A stretch of 64,000 nucleotides of DNA from Mesodorylaimus sp. YZB2_4 (Eukaryota > Nematoda > Enoplea > Dorylaimida > Dorylaimidae), in NCBI GenBank assembly GCA_030248295.1, contig JASANH010000455.1:1-64000 (forward strand), written 5' to 3'. Made by a program: the position numbers and the translations under genes. Positions 935 through 58,300 of this stretch are shown here, piece by piece. How positions within the stretch are numbered: position 1 is the first letter of the stretch; every line of letters begins with the position of its first letter. The notes below the pieces were generated by a model that worked only from the letters and a program-made list of their open reading frames with translations, made no database searches and had not been told where the DNA came from.

Positions 935-3728
935 CTAGAAAAAATTAGGTGGAGTCCAGTTTCGGAAGTGCAGTTTCTGCAGGATCCAATGACGTTTCTC
1001 CTCGCGTGGCTTCTTCAACACTTGGGTGTGTTCATTCTCGTCCTTCAGGTTTATGTGAGCACGCATTTTCGGTGGGTTATTAATTACTCTAGTGGCTGCC
1101 ACGCTGTAGGTCAGGTTGCTGGCCATCTTTTGACCTATCTGCATGCGCAAGCTTTGGTCGAAAATTATATCTGGCGATTCTTCTCTCACCTCAGTGGCCA
1201 TACTCCAGGCCACTGCGGCGTGGCGATCCAAGATGCAGTTCAGTTCGACGTCGTCCTCGTCTAAAAAAACATCCAATGAGTCTAGGATCTTGAAGCTGAG
1301 CAAGGGGAGAAGGAGGATAGGTCAAAGGTTCGTTTGTATGGACCCGACCTCGGGGTTGTAAAACAAGACTCAGGAGGTGGATTTCAGGTGGCTGGGTGGA
1401 TTTCAGCTCGAACAATCTATCCGATCACACAGTATCTACTTGTGACTTTATTACCTTTTCCATATTTCTTTTATTGCGTACCACAATCGACAAACACAAA
1501 ATTTTGAGCCAACAGCTGCAATCCGCTCAGCCTATCCCAGACATGTAAGCCAAGGTGAGGTGTTGACGGAGCACCAACATACCTTCGCCAAACGGATGCA
1601 TCAGATCACGAGCCACATTTAGCCAGCCGACGTAGAATATGAATTGCGAGATTGAAATCCAAGGCACGTAGAGGTCGATGGTCTTGCCCACATACTGGTG
1701 TCCAATAAGGGCGAAGACAAAGTAGCCATAGACCACGATGGCTACCGTTTGTGTGTAGACCAGTGGGATGTTGATCCAATCGTATCTGCAAGATCAAGGA
1801 CAGTAGCATCACTAATTGTAGCCAGTGAGGGAGTGTGATAAAGTAGGACTTAGTGTCAAGGCTACAATATTCATTGAGGGTCTGCGAATTGTCTACAGTG
1901 GACGTTTGATCAGCTACAACGAGAAGACTTATTATACAAAAATGGCTTCCCTGCACGGTTCGCAAGCGGTCGGGACGTGTTGTGCGTTGGGGTAGCGGTA
2001 AAGAAACATGTGCGCATCCCGATAAACGTGGGTTGCATAGGTAATGATGGAATGGGGGATGACTGCCTTTCTGCGCCACCTTACATGGGCATCATGCAGA
2101 CAGGACCAAAGAAGTTAGAAGTGTAATGGCATTACAATGGAGACGAGCAGGGAGCGAATTTCTAGGGTCACTCTGAGCGCGTGGTGCCGTCAAGATCAGT
2201 CGGCTGGTGAGGTCGTGAGCCCGTGAGAAGACTGACCAAACGAAAATGGCTCCCCTGCACGGCTCGATGATGGAAGTGAGCGTCAATTCGCCGGCCGTGA
2301 CCATGGCCCTCGTGGCGGCTGTCGCTATCATAGTGTTGGCCGGCTTGGTGGTCGCGACGTTGATGTGCGCCTGCGGTGGAGGAAAGAAAGAAACGCCGAC
2401 TTTGCTCGACGATCAACCGAAACTGGCACCCGCCGCTGTGGCACCGACGAGCGAAACGCCAGCTCCCGCTGTGGAAGAAGCGAAATCGATTGGTAGACAA
2501 ACGGCCAAATCGGCGTCCTTGTTCGATAAATCCATGGCTGCCAACGCCGCTCCGCCGTTGCTGCTCACCTCTCAAGGAAGGGGGGTTACTCTCTCGCTAG
2601 TCATCTATTTTCTAGTTGAGTACTTCCATTTCGGAAGGGCGCGATCGCCGGAGCAGACGATGATCAGAAACTGCGGCCTCGGAACGTGTCGGGCGTCAGT
2701 CTGGCCTTGAACAGCGTTCACACGGCGAGCGAGACTGCGCAACCGAGCGACGCCGACGCCGTCAGCGTCAAATCTGCCTCCCTGGTAGCCAGCAAAAGCA
2801 TCGTCAACAAACCGAAAACCGTCCATCGCGGTCCTCTGCGATCCCTCTCGGTGGCTGCTTGAAGAAAAGAAGGAACGTGATCGGCAGAGATCAGTGATGT
2901 CTCGTTTGGTCTGTGCTCGCTTCCTCATGTGAATGTTGTGCGGACAGGATGGTCCCGTGAGCAGAATGGTTCTGTGTTGAGAATGCCGGATGGTGAACGA
3001 ATAAAACTGGAGAAAATCGGAGATCAGTTCATATGTACCAGTTTCTGAAAACTGTTTCTGAAAGCATTACAGAGAACGAAATGCACTTACGTGAATAGTT
3101 CTCGCATGTGACCACGAAATGTGTTGACACTGCCGACGAAGGCCACTTTGACAATGGCATCGATGTCAGCCGGAAATATGACCTTGTCGATAATCCAATC
3201 CAGTGGCATCTGCCAACGAGTGTTCCTACACTTGGTGCGTCGAACTATGTCCAATTCTTGTTTGGTCATGAGACCAGCATCTACCAAGTGGTCCAGCTTT
3301 GGAAACCGTTTCCTTATACGGCTCGATATCTTGCGTAGGACCATGGCCTCGCTCAATACTATCCATCTCGCCACTGTTTCTCGTATGGCTTTCAGATGAT
3401 CACCGTCGTACAAACATGAATTTGCTACAGCAACGATGTCATCAGGCCAAGCTACTGCCATGACCTGACTCCACCAACGAGTCACTACTTGGCCAACGTA
3501 AAAGCCAAGAATAAAGACGAGAGGTAGGTCATCGCAGAAGCCGTCAAACATGGCTACCACTTTGCCCACATCCTCTTTCTGCCCTTCGCTGACTGCGTAG
3601 CGAAGTATGAAATAGATAGTGTACCAGAGGACCAGCCAAATAAGCAGATGCTTCCATACTGTCTTCCACACACTGCCTTTCCATCGACATAGTAGAAGGT
3701 GGATTCGCTCCGAGTATGTGATTGTCAT
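935..3728 (-). CDS. Bestrophin-family anion channel, copy A (3 exons)
   Basis: Bestrophins are pentameric, calcium-gated chloride channels of the plasma membrane. Exons (minus strand) are 3728-3091, 1785-1583 and 1260-935, with introns in phases 2 and 1, giving 388 residues. Visible family signatures are the MTITY start, the neck LPLVFILGFYV (F80 and F84 of human BEST1 kept, I76 replaced by L), the VVTRWW motif after it, YDWINIPLVYTQ, and the calcium clasp HPFGEDEDD, which matches the spacing of human NPFGEDDDD. The N-terminus is about eight residues shorter than human BEST1 just after MTITY, and the C-terminal tail is short. Intron 1 (1786-3090) contains a gene on the other strand. A second bestrophin lies immediately upstream in the same orientation, with the same exon lengths for exons 1 and 2, so the pair arose by tandem duplication. 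Family assignment is firm; exact ion selectivity is not visible. Confidence 0.93.
1935..1965 (+). repeat. Partial duplicate of the nested gene's 5' end
   Basis: About 30 bases around an ATG closely match the start region of the nested gene at 2236-2266 (Met-Ala-x-Leu-His-Gly-Ser in both). The reading frame after this copy is short. It looks like a small local duplication. Confidence 0.5.
2246..2862 (+). CDS. Small single-pass membrane protein nested in bestrophin A intron 1
   Basis: I do not recognise this gene. It lies entirely inside intron 1 of bestrophin A, on the opposite strand. Exon 1 is 2246-2584; exon 2 is probably 2638-2862. The reading frame after the proposed junction is open and uses similar codons, but the donor (GTTACT) is weak, so the exact join is inferred. 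The product would be about 187 residues. A hydrophobic helix at residues 19-43 (ending in LMCACGGGKK) is followed by an Ala/Pro/Thr/Ser-rich tail with scattered lysines, as in a type I or III single-pass protein with a disordered cytoplasmic tail. A polyadenylation signal AATAAA lies at 3000-3005. A degraded copy of the start region lies 300 bases upstream (1935-1965). The antisense position could allow interference with bestrophin A, but nothing shows this. Confidence 0.55.
3000..3005 (+). promoter_or_regulatory. AATAAA polyadenylation signal of nested gene
   Basis: A canonical AATAAA lies about 140 bases after the TGA at 2860-2862 and before the start of bestrophin A exon 1. It supports a plus-strand transcript ending inside the bestrophin intron. 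Confidence 0.45.
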
Positions 3729-4444
3729 TGGTACTCTCGGTGGTGATTCTTTCTTCGCAAGACCAAAAGTCTATGCACTATGAATGACTACTTTGAGGAC
3801 TACGTGAGGTCAATAGTGAGGCAGTCTTTTATCCAGCAGAGATCCCTAAGCTTGTATTTGGCAACCCTTTCCAATGGCTTCCTGCGTGGACGTCAGCCAA
3901 GCGTCAGTAAATACAGGAACCTATTCACTGAACAATGGACTGCTGATGGATAAGTGAGCAAGCCAATTCAAATGTCAGACTATCTGCACGCCAGCTTGTT
4001 GCGCTTTTCCGGGGGGTAAGGTACTGTTTACCTTTAGCGCACCAATAGTCACGCTAACCGGAATCGTGGTTTGTACAGATGAGCGAACAGGAAATTTGAG
4101 ATAGCCAATTGGATTGCAATGTACGGAACTGCCAAGGACCTTGAGACAACGTATGTTTAGACGACTGAAGAAGGTGAGGGCGGAAAGACATTAGGCGTGA
4201 CTAGAGCTCTTGCCAAGTGAAGGTGCGAAAGACAGAACAGTCAGACTGGCACAAAAAAAATACCTTGGCATTCTATTGTGCTGGTAGAACACTGGTGAGA
4301 GAATACAAGAATTGAAGGGTTCTAATGGTAAGAGTAGATACATGTGACATGATTACCAGTGCACCAGCTAAAAATGTAATCTGCTCTAATGGGGCTGTCA
4401 GATCTATGCAAAACATCATCGCTAATTTCGGCCCGTTTACAGGC
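3729..4444. other. Intergenic space between the bestrophins
   Basis: This 716-base stretch should hold the promoter of bestrophin A and the 3' end of copy B. I see no coding sequence or clear control motif. Confidence 0.5.
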
Positions 4445-5861
4445 CTAAAAGAAGTTTGGTGGAATATTAGTTTTCCACATCGTATTCTTCTCTGTTGGCT
4501 TCGGCGGAGGTGGTTTAGCTTGTGCTTGCTCGGCCTGCTTAACTTCGCAGTGCGCGCGCATCTTGGGCGGATTATTAACAATTTTAGAAGCTGATATGCT
4601 GTAGGTCAATTGATTGCCCATTTTCTCCCCCAAATCGCGGCGGATCTGCTCATCGAAAATGATATCGGGGGATTCCTCCCGGACTTCAGTTGCGAGACTG
4701 TGAGCGACGGCAGCATGCCGATCCAGAATGCAGTTGAGTTCCAAATCATCTTCATCTTCGCCTGAAAGGGTTCACGAATCAGTCAGATGCAGGCTTGCGA
4801 AGAGTACAGAACCCTCACCAAACGGGTTCATCATTTCTCTTGCAACATTGAACCAGCCAACGAAGAAAATGAACTGCAGGATGGACAACCAGGGCACGAA
4901 CAGATCCATTTTCTTTCCGACATACTGATGACCAATGAGGGCAAAGAGGAAGTAGCCGTATACCACGATGGCAACCGTCTGCGTGTACACTAGTGGTATG
5001 CCGATCCAGTCGAAGCTGAAACAAAGTGCAGATCGCTGTCATGCATTCTAGTTACCTATAATAAGACAGTATGACTTTCAGGCAGGTCGTTTCTAACCCA
5101 TTGCAGTAGCAAATATTACAACCTACGGAAAACTTGGGTCACTGTGTCCACTGACCATTAGAGCTTACAAGCAGTTTACAAAATTCTGGACCCGTAGGGA
5201 ATCAATGTGGCTGACAACCTACGTGAACAACTGCTGCATCTTTTCTCGGAAGGCATTAACACTCCCGCAGAAAGCCACTTTGACAACAGGCTGCGCTTCG
5301 GAGGGGAAGATGACTTTGTCCACGATCCAGTTCAATGGAAGCTGCCAGCGGGTATTTTTGCATTTAATATTTTGTATCAATACCAGTTCTTGCTTGGTCA
5401 TCAGCCCTGCATCAACCAAGTGATCAAGCTGAGGGAATCGTTTATGAATGCGAGGGCTGATCTGACGGAAAACCATGGCTTCGGACAGGACCAACCATCG
5501 TGCCACCGATTCGCGAATTAGCTTTTACGTGATCGCCATCGAAAAGGTACGAGTTGGCCACAACCACGCAGCTGTCAGGCCAGGGAATAGACATGACTAT
5601 GCTCCACCATCGAGTCACCACTTGGCCGACATAGAAGCCAAGGATGAAGAAAAGTGGTAAATCGCGGCAGAATTGATCGAACATGGCCACTACATCGCCC
5701 GCCGCCTTCTGCTGATCTTGTGTAAGACCGAACTTGAGGATGAAGTAGAGTATGTACCAGGCGATAAGCCAATTAAGCAAATGTCTCCAGACGGTTTTCC
5801 AAACACTGCCTTTCCATCGGGTCAAAAGAAAACGGATCTGTTCCGGGTAAGTGATGGTCAT
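4445..5861 (-). CDS. Bestrophin-family anion channel, copy B (frameshifted)
   Basis: This is the tandem neighbour of bestrophin A. Exons are 5861-5223, 5015-4813 and 4761 (or 4755)-4445. Exon 2 is 203 bases, the same as in A, and the intron phases are the same. Exon 1 is 639 bases against 638 in A. The extra base is a T at 5518 or 5519 on the plus strand, after the codons for DGDHVKA; the frame runs out 23 codons later unless it is ignored. Skipping it restores IRESVARW and everything downstream matches A. The neck LPLFFILGFYV and the clasp NPFGE are intact. Exon 3 has two possible acceptors six bases apart. Without the extra base the product is 383 or 385 residues. It is either a recently disabled copy or a sequencing/assembly error. 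Close agreement with A suggests recent function. Confidence 0.9.
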
Positions 5862-6711
5862 TCTTTTATGATTCCCACCTGTAGTCTTTCGTGACTGAAG
5901 CTGAAGGGAAAGACGACTATCATTGAACTTATAGGATGACAGATTGACTCCTTTTGGAAGAGTTGCTGTATATTTCTAAATGGATGAACTGGCTCCTTCA
6001 AAGGCATCCAGAAATGGCTTCTTAGCCCATCCGGTTGCAAAAGTCATCGGTATGCAGACTTTGCGCCGTCAGAAAAACAGTTCACTATGCCAACGCCAAT
6101 GAATCACAAGTATATCTGTATCAAACCCTGCGAAAAAAGTGAGACAGCCGTTGGACTCCAACTATTCTAGTTTTGTCCTTGTCCGCTACGATAGTAATCG
6201 TGCCGATGAGATTTTGATCGTTGACGCACCATGCCTCATATATAAAAGGCCTTGCGCGATAGCGTGGTAATGCCGCGATGGCAGTATGTTCATAGTGTCA
6301 CTCTAGTGCGCCATTCTGCCTGAGGGAGAGTAGATTGCACTGCTGATGACATTTTTTCAGCATCATCGAGACCGCGAAGGGCGCAACTAGTTCATCGTTT
6401 ATTTTCAAAAGTTGCATGCCCCGAAAACTGGCGCGAGCTGAAGAAGGCGGATAGCTCTTGTTTTACATTGCAAAAAAGCAACTCTAATGGTGCAGGGCAG
6501 GGACTGCGCAAGAGCAATATTACCATTTAAATCCTAGGCTGTGTTTCTTTTTGGCAAAGCCCCAGTTTCAATGTAAGCTTAAAAGATGTTATTCAGAGAA
6601 GTTCAGACCAAGAACTCGAGGCCAGCCTCAAGTGATGCCTGCGAACAACCAATATTTCGACTGCGATATTGCTGTAGGTTTTGTGCCTGACCCTGACATA
6701 ATGACGACTGC
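5862..6711. other. Upstream region of bestrophin B, no gene seen
   Basis: A TATATAAAAG word at about 6239-6248 (plus strand) is a chance-level TATA candidate. The open frames on either strand look random. Confidence 0.45.
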
Positions 6712-20484: not shown

Positions 20485-21234
20485 CTAAAAAGGACCGCAA
20501 TAAGGAAGCAGGTCACGAATATCGCATCCCACATCGCAACATATTTTCATAATTTCACTCAACGTAGCTGGTCGAAATCCTTTAATGCTCCTCTTTGCTA
20601 TCTCAGTTTCTCCATCCAATTCCAAACCGCCTGGTGTTTTCGATGAAATCATGCCCAAGATTTCACTTCGAGCATCTGAAACACAACCGTTTACCATATA
20701 AGGCATTATAAGCATGGTTTTTAGGGTCCGCATAAACTTGATAAGCTTGTTTGCACTGCGTGCGCAAAGACCCCGTCGGAAATGTTTGCCTTCCTCTGAC
20801 TTTTATTCGAGTCCTAATGATCGGCAAGGAAGTCTAGTGTGCTAACGCGGATGTGCTTGCGGGCAAAGGAGGAGGGAAGGTGATGAAGCTTATAAGTGAT
20901 GTTCGATTAGAGTTGTTGTTGCATTTCGGAGCGGTGGCCAATGAAATTTAGCTCCTCGCACGTGCCTTGTAGGGGATGCGCATGACACAAGAAGCATAAC
21001 TTGGATGCTACAGTATGCCCTGACTGAGTGCGTGCACAAGAAGCCACAGTTCTTACCGCGTTTACGTCGTTTCTTCATTTCGCAGGCCAATGTCCAGGCC
21101 ATGGTGAAGGCCTTGCCGCCGGGTGGACACAGCATGAGTTGTCCGAAAGGTTCATCCTTTCTTTTTTCGGCATCCGCCGCCACGACGAGGAACATTGGCA
21201 CCAGGCAGCAGAGCAGTGTCGTATAGTATTTCAT
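20485..21234 (-). CDS. Insulin-like peptide precursor
   Basis: Exons are 21234-21057 and 20675-20485, joined in phase 1, giving 122 residues. A signal peptide covers about residues 1-20. The B chain has Cys36 and Cys51 and ends in the basic cleavage site KKRRKR (54-59). A connecting peptide of about 29 residues ends in AKR (86-88). The A chain carries the diagnostic pattern Cys105-Cys106-x3-Cys110-x8-Cys119 (ICCDVGCDIRDLLPYC). The precursor therefore has exactly six non-signal cysteines in insulin order. The B-chain spacing is odd: 14 residues between the cysteines instead of 11. GKAFTMAWTLAC aligns with human GSHLVEALYLVC, so three residues (PPG) appear inserted after the first cysteine. The intron falls just after the B chain, near the usual position. 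The product would be a secreted hormone acting on an insulin/relaxin-type receptor. Confidence 0.85.
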
Positions 21235-52300: not shown

Positions 52301-55300
52301 ATGGAATTCAGTACTCGGTGCGAACGAGGGCAGGATATTCGGCTTTACTTGGTACGTGCGTGATGGCGCATGCGTCGTGGCTGATAACCATTTATCGTTT
52401 GCAGACCGATTCGCCTACGATACTGTTTCGTATTATGAACCAGAGTTTCCCGAAATGAATTTCTGCAAGGATCATCAATTATCGGGGAAAAGACGACATT
52501 TTCCACACGTTATCGCTGCCCAACTACCCAACGGCACGGCGATGACCAACGATTCTTCGTTTCCATGCTACATGGTAAGGGTATGGCTGAGGGAATGACT
52601 TATGAACTCGTTGACCGTCATGAACAGCACTCATCTGGTCGATGGTCATTCTTGACTGCTAGGATGGGAGGGCGGGCTTTCTTATATTTTTACTCGCTTG
52701 ATGGGAGTAGCCATTGACGCCTGCCGCCTGTCACGAGCACAATAGGCAGTGAGTGTCGTCCAGTGCCTGATCGAAGGACAGGAAGTGGAGGAAGGGCGAG
52801 GTCGACCTAGATTTATGCGCATTCTAGGTACCGTCTACGCCAACATTTCAATGACCCGTAACGTGCATGGGCATTGAGGGAGGGTGAAATGGGCGCATGT
52901 CATTGGTTAGGCGCCGAAGGGTGATTACAGGAATGTAGGACGTGGGAACGCTAATTTCGATGTGAACGGCTCGTTACGTTTCCGGGCTGAAACAGGTGCT
53001 TTGCATAAGAAAGTGGAAATGCACGGGAACGGAAAGGGCGGATTTGGGAGAGAGGTTTAGCGCATAGGTCTGGGAATAATACTGCTGAAATCACTTTGAT
53101 TTAATTTTATCATTTTTTATCCTCCTAAGCACCAGTAGTTTCTGTTCACGCCATATAATGATTAGGCAACGAATTGACTCTTGGTCTTGATAAAATAATT
53201 GAAAACCTTGAAGGAGCCATGCACGAAGGACTGGGTACTTCTAAAACATTGTGTCAGAATGAGCGTGGTCAAAACTTCCCTACCCTCTCAGAACTGAATC
53301 TATATCTCAAGGCATGGCCCGCCATGGCATACCGTTTCTGGCCCTTGCATAACATCGGCGCCTCTGCAGTCTAAGGTACTGTAATTATGTATTGTCAAGA
53401 GGTCAATTAGGGAGCGCGTTGTGAAGCTGGTGAAGTGGTAAAACAGGAACTCGGACAGGGTGCTCTATTTCTCCAGAAAATTTAGCCGTGAGACGCTGAA
53501 CGAAGATGCTGGATCTGACGAATCGCACGCTCGCACAGACACAGGAGGTGCAGGCGGAGGAGCAGACAGGACAGAAGGCTGCACAGGAGTCTGGAGTCGC
53601 ACGCTCTGGAGATTGATACTGTTCTGTTTTCAGAAACTTTCTCTTCCACCCAAATTGCCTTATACGTACACGATACAGTTTTTGGATATCCGTAATTATA
53701 ATCCTCGACGATTGGGTACTCGGACGTATGTGCAAATTTGTGACAACTACGTGAATGGGTGTGCAACGCCCCGTTACAAGATACCTCTATACGACAATGT
53801 CATGATTCCTAGTGTGGATGCGATGTAGGTGGTCAGTTGGGAGTGACCAGGGCAGCAATCAGTTTCTATCGTTTTTAGAAACACTGCCGCCGGACTGTGG
53901 ATCGGATTGAAACACGAAGGTGCGCCGAATGGCCAGTTGTATGGGGATATTCGATTGGTGATGAAGATACATGCTAGTGTGAAGGGTAAGGGTGACATTG
54001 ATTTGTTTTCGTTACTCTAATTAGTTTTTATTTACAGATCAAGTGATCTATGGTCTGAACGTCAGCAATTCGCGTGTGACGCACAATTGGGGCAAAGGCA
54101 TCTTTTTGGCCAATTTACGTGATCGGACAGTGATCAATAACGTCACTATAATGTACAATCGTCATGTGGCCGGTGTGCACGTGTTGGGCGGTGCTGGCGA
54201 TATCTGGATCAATAACTCGTATATCGAGAACAATCTGGGCGATGGGGTCAACATATCTTATTGTGGTGGCTCAACTATCGTCAATAGTACATCTATCAGT
54301 AACAACACGCTGAGAGGGATCGCCTTCCATTACAACGACTCGTATCCGTTCCTTCCGGTCAAGCAAGAAATAGTTATCAAAGGCCGGCCATCGAATAACA
54401 ACGATTATAAACCGACTATGATCAATTATAATTTTTGGGGTGGTATTTTGATTGGAAATTTTTGCGCGCACGCATTGAATCCAGTGGCGTATCCGAAGGT
54501 GATTGTGAATTATGTGGAATTGATTGGGAATAAGTATCATCCGGCATTCGAATATCATAGTTGCCAGCGGGATAACCAACCTTATCCGACCACTGTGGAA
54601 TTCTCTGGATCTCGATGTCAATATTCGACTGGATTCTGCGTGCGAGTTCAACCAGCTGTGAACATAAGGTTGGATATAAATGATAATATATTTTTCAATA
54701 ATGAGAGGAGCGTACTGATTGTGAGAAATAAGGGCCACCCGCAATTGGCTCATTTACCGGCCATGGTATCGATTACGAGGAATCAGATGAAATTCAATTC
54801 GGGACCATTCATAGTGAATATCGGATTGAATGATAGATCAGCAGTTCAGAAAATGCATTTCAATTTACAAAATGAAATTCGTGAGAATACGGTATTTAAT
54901 CCGTTCCCGTTCTTGACTGCGAGGTAAGTTGTAGTTTTGTGAATTTTGTTTTTTAGAGATGTGATAAGCGTATGCTCTTTTTAGGCATCAACCGTACGCA
55001 GCCTTGATCGTCTCGTCTTCGAATGTGGTCCTTCGACGGAACTGTTTTAATAATCCTCGAGCAGAGTACGAGATCGCAACTGATTTGGATGAACATTATC
55101 GAGTGATTGATGCCGAAGAGAATAATTGGGGCGGAAGTGATCCATCGATTTTTATGTACAAGATATTCGATCATTTCAAACGATACACCTTGGCCACGAT
55201 CGACGTCGATCCTTATATGGCTATATGCAATGCGCAGACGCCGAGAATCACTCCGTTGTTTAGTTTTTATCGTCAATTTCGTAAATCCGAATTGCCGAAT

Positions 55301-58300
55301 GTGTTGGGCGGAGTTGTGTACGAGAACACGGACCTGTCGACTGGCGAGTACACGGTGGTGGACGATTTGCACGTGGCGCCCGGAGCAACGTTGAATTTGG
55401 CACCGGGCGTGACACTGAAGTTCAAGGACTCGATCGGATTATTGGTGCAAGGCGAATTATTGAGGGCGTCGTATCCGAGCTCGCAGCAATCCGCTTCCGA
55501 TCCCATATTGTTTACGAGAATCGGTTGGGAACCGCCCGCAGTGCCCAACATACGATTAGTGTCCATGGACCCGTTACATCCGAAAGGTCGACCGGCGACT
55601 GAAGGACGTTTGGAAGTGATGATCGATGGTGAATGGGGGACGGTGTGCAATCGAAGTTGGACGGTGGAGCTGGCCTCGTTGGCGTGTAATCAGTTGGGTA
55701 TGATTATCGATCCTGAATTTTTGGAGAACTGGATCGCTTACGTATCGCCGGGCGAATTGCCTATTATTATGGATATTATTCGATGCGAAGAATGGGAAAC
55801 GGACTTGACTCGGTGTCGACACGATACGCCCTGGGAGACGAGGAACAATTCGTGCAAGCCGTACGACATTGTTGGAGTGCGATGCGTGGAACCGCATTGG
55901 GCTGGTGTTCGGTATACTTTATTGGCCAATCCACCGACTGTGACTGGACAAAGTGCAATAAGGAATTTGATCATTGAAAAAGCCGGTTTGTTGGATTATG
56001 GAGCCCCCGAATTCGTTGCCGCTTTACAAATCGATTGGAACTGTCACCTGTTTCAAGATTTGATCGTTCGAGACAATTTCTGGAATGGAGTCGATATCAT
56101 TTACAATGACCTCGTGCGGAAACCGAAGGTTAGTAATAGCCGATTCGAACGCAATCGACGACACGGAATGCGATTGAGATCGGTCGGATTGACGATGGAG
56201 TACGTTGTGGTGGCGAACAATGACAATGCTGGCATTATGTACAATCCGATCGTGTCGGCCAAGGAGCAAAGAGACGTTTATACGTGGATTCACAGACAGG
56301 ACGCAGTCACCAACAATGTTAACGTGATTCCGGACTCGAATTTGGAGGAAGTGCATTTGACACCGGCCTTGAGAGAACAACGTCAATTCTTGGTGAGCAA
56401 GGAAGTGGGCGAGTGTCAGAACGTCAGTGTGGCACGCCCGTGCTCGTATACCTTACGTGTTGTGGCCAGTGGTGGTCAAGTGGGTGTCGAGTCGAGGATT
56501 GGCGTACAAATTATTAGTCGACCGAGCAATTTGTCCGATGAGAACATGATATTCATTGATGGAAGTCAACAGCGAAGATGGAACATGAGGAACGACTTGA
56601 TCTACTTCCCCGTCGTCACACAGTTGAACACTTTGACCATACAGTATAACCGAAGTTATGGACCAGCTGCGATCGTAGTTTTGCTGCTGTATTTGGACTG
56701 TAAGTTGTGTTTGGCTCATGGGCGAGGGGGTTGTCCTGAGTTGGTTGAACCAAACTTTAAGCTCGGGGTGCAATTCACCATATGCAGAGTTATGGGGCTC
56801 AGTTGGTTCCACACTGCTTGGACCGTGAGGCCGCAGTTCTGCTCCAGCTGAGTGGCTGCTGATGGCGATTTAGTAGGTCCATCGCTGGCTTTGCACGCCT
56901 GGTCCTGGGCGACTCACCCACTGCGGTCAAGTGGCGGACGCCGAGCGAGTAGAGAATCAGGAAACTTGTCCTCAAACAAGGGAGGGTCCCTCCCTCCTCG
57001 CACGCTATCATCCAGGAAGCTGGAATCGGCATAGTGTGTCCTCGGCGGAGGTGCTCCTAGTGGAGACGTTAAAGGGAACCTGCCGTGAGATGTGACCCCA
57101 CCTATCATATCATGACTAGGCAAAACGAGGGGGAGGGTTGGAGGTTGGGTTGGTTCCTGCGCCATCCCAGTTCCCCCACGGGACTTCCAAATGATAAGCG
57201 AGGCTGTGAGATGACCAGCTTTCACGGCAGCTTCCCTCTGCGCGTCTCATCCTGTGCCAGCACTAGCGTCACAGGATGATGCTGGGCGAGAAGGCTGGAT
57301 CTTTCCCGACTTGTGTCAGAGAACCAGCTGCCTAATTCTCGCTCGTTCGGCCACTTGACGGTTTGGGTGAGTCGTCCACTGCCAGGCGTGCCAGGCTAGC
57401 GACGGACTAAATTGCTGTCGAAGACTGGCTCCTTCTCCGAACAACGGGCTTACTAAACTGCCGTCCTCAGCTGGAACAGAACTGCGGCCTCCTGGTCAAG
57501 GTTGCGGGACCAACGCCAACTGAGCCACCGCAGATCTGCTATTTGGAGAGCCTCTCCTTTTTTGAAATGGCGCTGGGCTTATTGATGTCGACCCCTTTGC
57601 CGATGCTGTTGGTGAAATCCTCGGCTCGCCCTAGGGCTGACCAGAAGATGGCTCAAGCAACAGGAACAAGCCCACACAGTCCGCGGACACCTCGTGCTAT
57701 AGTTTACTGTCCCACACCACAAGGGCCGTGTAGACTTACAATTCGGGGAGCAGCCGCACGTGCCGGCCGTCAAAGAGGCTCTGACGGACCTTGGCTCGAA
57801 GTGGTCACAGAGCAGTTCAGACCAGGAATTCAGACCAGTCTTCTACCGACGTCTGCAAACCAACCAGACCTTGGTCTCGTGCTGGCCCTGACTTAGGAGA
57901 GACCGGCTCCCTGAACCAGTGCGCCAATGGGTTGGAGATGCCCTTTACATTAATTAGCTCAGTTCTGTCTTGCCTTCAGTCCGAGTGTCAATCGATCACT
58001 GCATTTTAGATTACCAACTGATCGATACGTTCATTCACATGAGGTATAGTCGGATCGAGAATAATCAATACGCAGTGGCCACCTTGCATTACTCGAATTT
58101 CACGCACGATGATGGTTCAATTATCAATCGTCACATACGCGAACAGTTGTGGTTTCGTAGAACGAATTTTACTAGGAATAGAGAAGCCGTCATTTGGGTG
58201 AATGGCCCTTTACGCGATTTCAGTCAATACAGTCCGATCGCGGAAATTGAATATTATATCGATAATTGTTCGATCACTTTGAATAACGGGAGCATCATAG

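Follow-up and report, generated by a model that had tools for sequence, protein, structure and literature searches.

Does an insulin-like precursor whose two B-chain cysteines lie 14 rather than 11 residues apart define a subgroup of its own in a single nematode lineage, or does it belong to a type that is already known? This question is raised by a locus of the dorylaimid nematode Mesodorylaimus sp. YZB2_4, found on the first 64,000 nucleotides of contig JASANH010000455.1 (assembly GCA_030248295.1), a stretch to which we refer as the window. The initial annotation had described there a two-exon insulin-like gene with a Pro-Pro-Gly insertion in its B chain, and had proposed that it may define a lineage-specific subgroup of insulins.

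Gene model and chain architecture

The gene is encoded on the minus strand of the window and consists of the following features.

21057..21234, minus strand: exon 1, with signal peptide, B chain and the start of the C part (from the ATG at 21234 to the donor; similarity to paralogs)
20676..21056, minus strand: phase-1 GT-AG intron of 381 nt in the C part, starting with GTAAGA and ending with TTTCAG
20485..20675, minus strand: exon 2, with the remaining C part, the A chain and the stop codon (translation; similarity to paralogs)
21169..21234, minus strand: probable signal peptide, residues 1-22, with the hydrophobic core LLCCLVPMFLVVAA (by eye from the translation)
21082..21129, minus strand: B-chain cysteine loop CPPGGKAFTMAWTLAC, C-X14-C (translation, pattern count)
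21118..21126, minus strand: Pro-Pro-Gly, the additional residues that follow the first B cysteine (splice listing, paralog comparison)
21058..21075, minus strand: basic run KKRRKR, a likely convertase site ending the B chain (by eye from the translation)
20590..20595, minus strand: Lys-Arg ahead of the A chain, a likely convertase site (by eye from the translation)
20497..20541, minus strand: A-chain core CCDVGCDIRDLLPYC, the sole insulin A-chain signature match in the six frames of the window

Joined at 21057/20675, the two exons stay in the reading frame that had been claimed and translate into a precursor of 122 residues. A hydrophobic N-terminus leads into the B part QLMLCPPGGKAFTMAWTLACEMKKRRKR; a short C part, with KR as its last residues, connects this to the A part, in which the core is succeeded by a C-terminal GPF. 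With its signal peptide, its B, C and A parts and the A-chain signature in place, the precursor is insulin-like as annotated, and the window gene is confirmed as a real and correctly described insulin-like gene. Its C-part intron has the same phase and place in all four paralog models described below; one study names a phase-1 intron in the C part as a characteristic mark of insulin-related genes (PMC8286064).

Counting along the translation places the B-chain cysteines at residues 36 and 51, with 14 residues between them, which upholds the spacing reported at the outset; the genomic codons at the insert read TGT-CCA-CCC-GGC-GGC. The B-chain helix keeps F, A, W, L and C at the positions that correspond to L11, A14, L15, L17 and C19 of insulin. 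The A chain, CC-X3-C-X8-C, is canonical, as had been stated. The signature used, a PROSITE-like pattern, has a single match across all six frames of the window, against a mean of 0.0 in 50 single-base shuffles. Since it is virtually absent from the shuffles, and since four diverged paralogs exist, the gene is not a chance pattern.

Elsewhere in the window, adjoining bestrophin-like frames are present at 3087-3770 and 5442-5975 (both minus strand; a Pfam match for the former, judged by eye for the latter). Two adjoining frames with beta-helix and SRCR domains, which we take to resemble arthropod Bark/Anakonda, are located at 54025-56851 on the plus strand, and similar frames occur between about 49 and 63 kb.

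A family of five genes and an intron at the insert

The assembly comprises 145 Mb in 1067 contigs. It contains 133 matches to the cuticle-collagen N-terminal family, which we take to be a nematode mark, versus none in 14 prokaryote control genomes; these matches spoke against the tardigrade, mite or flatworm origin that genome size and GC content had suggested. No copy of the 22-mer SL1 leader was found in the genome, either exact or with two mismatches allowed, a hint of an early-branching nematode. There are 15 COX1-like matches (on C73, C273, C47 and other contigs), one of them spanning nearly the whole family model, and one COX1 copy follows the invertebrate mitochondrial code; these matches represent either mitochondrial inserts or mitochondrial pieces in contigs.

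When this assembly was searched with the precursor at E values up to 10, all ten scored matches fell inside five genes, a count to be read as a lower bound given that only the best candidates were scored and more are possible. Besides the window gene, these are two paralogs about 6 kb apart on C127, one on C20 and one on C26. All five models have a signal peptide, the B-C-A order, basic cleavage sites (signal peptides and cleavage sites judged by eye) and the phase-1 C-part intron. The basic run at the B-chain end, the signature CC-x3-C-x8-C and six cysteines outside the likely signal peptide (placed by eye) are likewise found in every member, while the C-terminal sequence DPFGxWNS is present in three of the five and absent from the window gene. 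Prokaryote contigs yielded 30 stretches fitting a pattern, none of which was confirmed as a relative, and a single-sequence search of solved structures gave no match.

None of the five B chains has C-X11-C with a Gly behind the first cysteine; the spacing is X14 in four members and X12 in one, and Pro or Ser follows the cysteine. Three paralogs carry 14-residue loops (CPAGGRSFMVAWNLAC, CPSGGRSFMMAWNLAC and CPAGGRGFQMAWNLAC) and one a 12-residue loop (CSGRAFVTAWNLAC); at the position of the Pro-Pro-Gly, the former have PAG, PSG and PAG, and the latter a single S. Across the five genes, loop length varies solely between the first cysteine and the helix-opening Gly-Arg/Lys. This confinement confirms the earlier placement of the insert directly after the first B cysteine, the 12-residue paralog showing that length varies at this very point.

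Over 52 aligned codons, from which the insert and the C part were left out, simple counting gave pS values of 0.73-0.95 and pN values of 0.10-0.21 in all ten gene pairs. For the B part alone, pN ranged from 0.07 to 0.26 and was highest (0.21-0.26) in the four pairs that involve the window gene. Synonymous change near saturation combined with low replacement change is indicative of purifying selection; as judged from these counts, the five genes are old duplicates under purifying selection and not haplotype copies.

The insert coincides with an intron in most members. Four of the five genes have a phase-1 intron that splits the codon ending PxG (a Ser codon in the C26 gene), and the window gene is the one that lacks a B-loop intron. 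With the paralog splice joins predicted from consensus sites, exon 1 closes with TGC-A|GTAAGT in the 12-residue member and with TGC-CCN-NCT-G|GTAAG in the other paralogs. Moving the donor site by six bases would explain why the loops differ by two residues, 12 versus 14. The B-loop intron may either have been lost in the window gene or gained in the others; the trees, with bootstraps of 31-45, are compatible with both. One might go further and suppose that splicing of this intron tunes loop length, a movable donor giving 12 or 14 residues and thereby graded ligands for the three insulin-receptor-type genes discussed below, with the longer loop setting INS-17-type ligands apart at the receptor. 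This more elaborate scenario we regard as improbable.

An intron at the insert site in four paralogs also lends some credence to the idea that the gene model is an artefact, and that another splice form drops the Pro-Pro-Gly and restores the usual spacing. Among GT-AG pairs that begin downstream of the ATG, six could excise the insert, their donors lying ahead of the Pro-Pro-Gly and their acceptors between it and the second B cysteine: three remain in frame but lose the first B cysteine, and three break the frame. Not one of these six removes the insert while retaining the first cysteine in frame. Moreover, three of the four paralogs retain PxG despite the intron there, and we consider an artefact of this kind extremely improbable. 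Scarcely more credible is the view that the window gene is an insulin-like pseudogene in decay, with a loop that has drifted. It is alone among the five in lacking the B-loop intron, is devoid of the C-terminal tail found in three paralogs, scores below the Pfam cut-off and has the highest replacement change in the B part, all of which would fit decay; its two exons are nevertheless open, all six cysteines are retained, and in each of its four pairs replacement change is low while synonymous change is close to saturation.

Relation to INS-17 and to other insulins

Pfam Insulin (PF00049) is the best family for all five members, at 15.5-21.1 bits and thus below the curated cut-off of 23 bits, which is a threshold and not a structural criterion. 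The 12-residue member (20.8 bits) scores no better than one of the 14-residue members (21.1 bits), and the insert is therefore not the main cause of the low scores. A PF00049 search of the unspliced genomic DNA detected three other insulins (on C1, C76 and C7) and none of the five. These three, which we take to resemble INS-1, share the B-C-A order and the A-chain pattern with the window family, but they exceed the Pfam cut-off and possess the ordinary 11-residue B loop (LCGEKLVKMVLSLC). Two of them have an extra cysteine in each chain, presumably like INS-1, whereas the window family has six cysteines. In a profile comparison of the three with the window family, the A chain alone aligned, with a probability of 2.9.

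Human insulin, IGF-1 and relaxin also share the A-chain pattern with the window family, and the family profile touches the A chains of IGF-1, relaxin, INSL3 and INSL5 at E values of 0.05-0.8. The B chain of insulin-like peptides is given as Cx[11]C, with a Gly directly after the first cysteine, in one source (PMC8698791); human insulin, IGF-1 and relaxin have this arrangement, while the window family has a longer loop and Pro or Ser in place of the Gly. The relaxin/dilp7 and gonadulin types (PMC7357564; PMC8286064) were considered and, going by general features of these types, are not favoured.

Our comparison with INS-17 of C. elegans used a provisional version of its sequence, set down after the window sequence was known; the identification that follows is for this reason a strong lead and not proof. 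In this version, INS-17 is a peptide of 108 residues with CPPGG, a 14-residue B spacing, and the segments KLCPPGGASFLDAFNLIC and CCETGCEFTDIFAICNPFG. Its length equals the published 108 residues; the Haemonchus contortus counterpart Hc-INS-17 has 106 residues and is 54.7% identical to INS-17 (PMC4741068). Against the profile of the five genes, the provisional INS-17 scored 61.5 bits, the highest of 500 shuffles of it 8.3, human insulin 4.6, the C7 insulin of this worm 4.2, a provisional INS-1 sequence 2.5, and the C1 and C76 insulins, entered as rough joined sequences, -0.9 and -1.9 bits. An hhalign comparison of the provisional INS-17 with the family gave a probability of 99.4, and all seven of its matches in the genome lay in the five genes, none in C1, C76 or C7. 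In this provisional sequence, the likeness includes GSLxLCPPGG, the 14-residue loop, the basic run behind the B chain, six cysteines, CCxxGCE and the C[ND]PFG end.

It is against this likeness that the proposal of a new insulin-like subgroup, limited to this nematode lineage and with a PxG loop gained independently of INS-17, has to be weighed. The family does have features of its own, namely the DPFGxWNS end in three of five members and the B-loop intron in four, and the tree that included the provisional INS-17 gave no clear branching (bootstraps 31-45). Yet independent gain is at odds with the shared GSLxLCPPGG, basic run, CCxxGCE and C[ND]PFG end, and with a profile score of INS-17 far above those of the other insulins; we hold it to be unlikely. 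As the provisional INS-17 has both CPPGG and the 14-residue spacing, the longer loop looks like a shared INS-17 trait. The initial proposal of a lineage-specific subgroup hence stands in so far as a distinct group of five genes exists in this genome, but its novelty does not, since by the match to the provisional INS-17 the window family most likely represents the nematode INS-17 type. Uncommon as the loop is across insulins, within INS-17 it is most likely the norm. What is new here, and may set these genes apart from INS-17, is a five-gene family, an intron at the insert in four genes, and one natural 12-residue member.

Two further statements bear on this assignment, the first in its favour and the second against it: ins-17 has been reported from all five nematode groups in one survey, and another source says that INS-17 has no B chain and tabulates it as an agonist (PMC8698791). 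A search of the full-text literature, with figures and supplements outside its reach, returned no printed statement of the loop with the letters CPPGG.

Proposed mode of action and its significance

Quite probably, the window gene is a functional nematode INS-17-type insulin-like gene that encodes a secreted, convertase-cut, two-chain ligand of an insulin-receptor-type kinase, with the Pro-Pro-Gly as a stiff turn. This reading starts from the gene, the family, its conservation, and the receptor-type domains and kinase motifs found in the genome; from these we infer processing, disulfides, the receptor involved, the sign of action and the INS-17 identity. The INS-17 type would, in the sense used here, be of the gamma class, with three disulfides. 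The secreted precursor would be cut at KKRRKR and KR, with loss of the C peptide, and the B and A chains would be held together by two disulfides, with a third within the A chain. The Pro-Pro-Gly may act as a stiff turn or rigid spacer that separates the first B cysteine from the helix, whereby the helix would keep its register.

Candidate receptors are encoded at three insulin-receptor-type loci with kinase motifs.

C63, about 179-207 kb: two insulin-receptor-type loci, their L domains 20 kb apart, with kinase motifs
C68, about 321-328 kb: one insulin-receptor-type locus, with kinase motifs

The best solved match of the C68 L domain is the insulin receptor (E 7e-25). That of the C63 179-kb domain is the IGF-1 receptor (E 5e-21) and that of the C63 200-kb domain an insulin-like receptor (E 3e-23), in both cases with erbB-3 close behind. 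Each of the three is followed by kinase motifs 7-9 kb downstream. Since the C63 200-kb and C68 L domains share 72-73% identity with the C63 179-kb domain, the loci are paralogs and not haplotypes; C. elegans has one insulin receptor gene, compared with three loci here. An L domain on C119 is of the EGF-receptor type, and another is located on C3. The ligand would bind an insulin-receptor-type kinase of the worm as a modulator, perhaps an antagonistic one, the role reported for INS-17 in C. elegans. INS-17 is described as a DAF-2 antagonist (PMC13143180; PMC4741068) and as dauer-promoting (PMC6332619), but the agonist entry in PMC8698791 disagrees on the sign.

Collectively, these findings show that insulin-like peptides can depart from a B loop of 11 residues, and that genes of this sort can escape curated insulin models: even when spliced, all five fall below the Pfam cut-off. 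The change in loop length at an intron edge, 12 versus 14 residues, amounts to a natural experiment, on a small scale, in insulin structure. Should the INS-17 identity be correct, the range of this family would extend to a nematode whose genome yielded no match to the standard SL1 leader.
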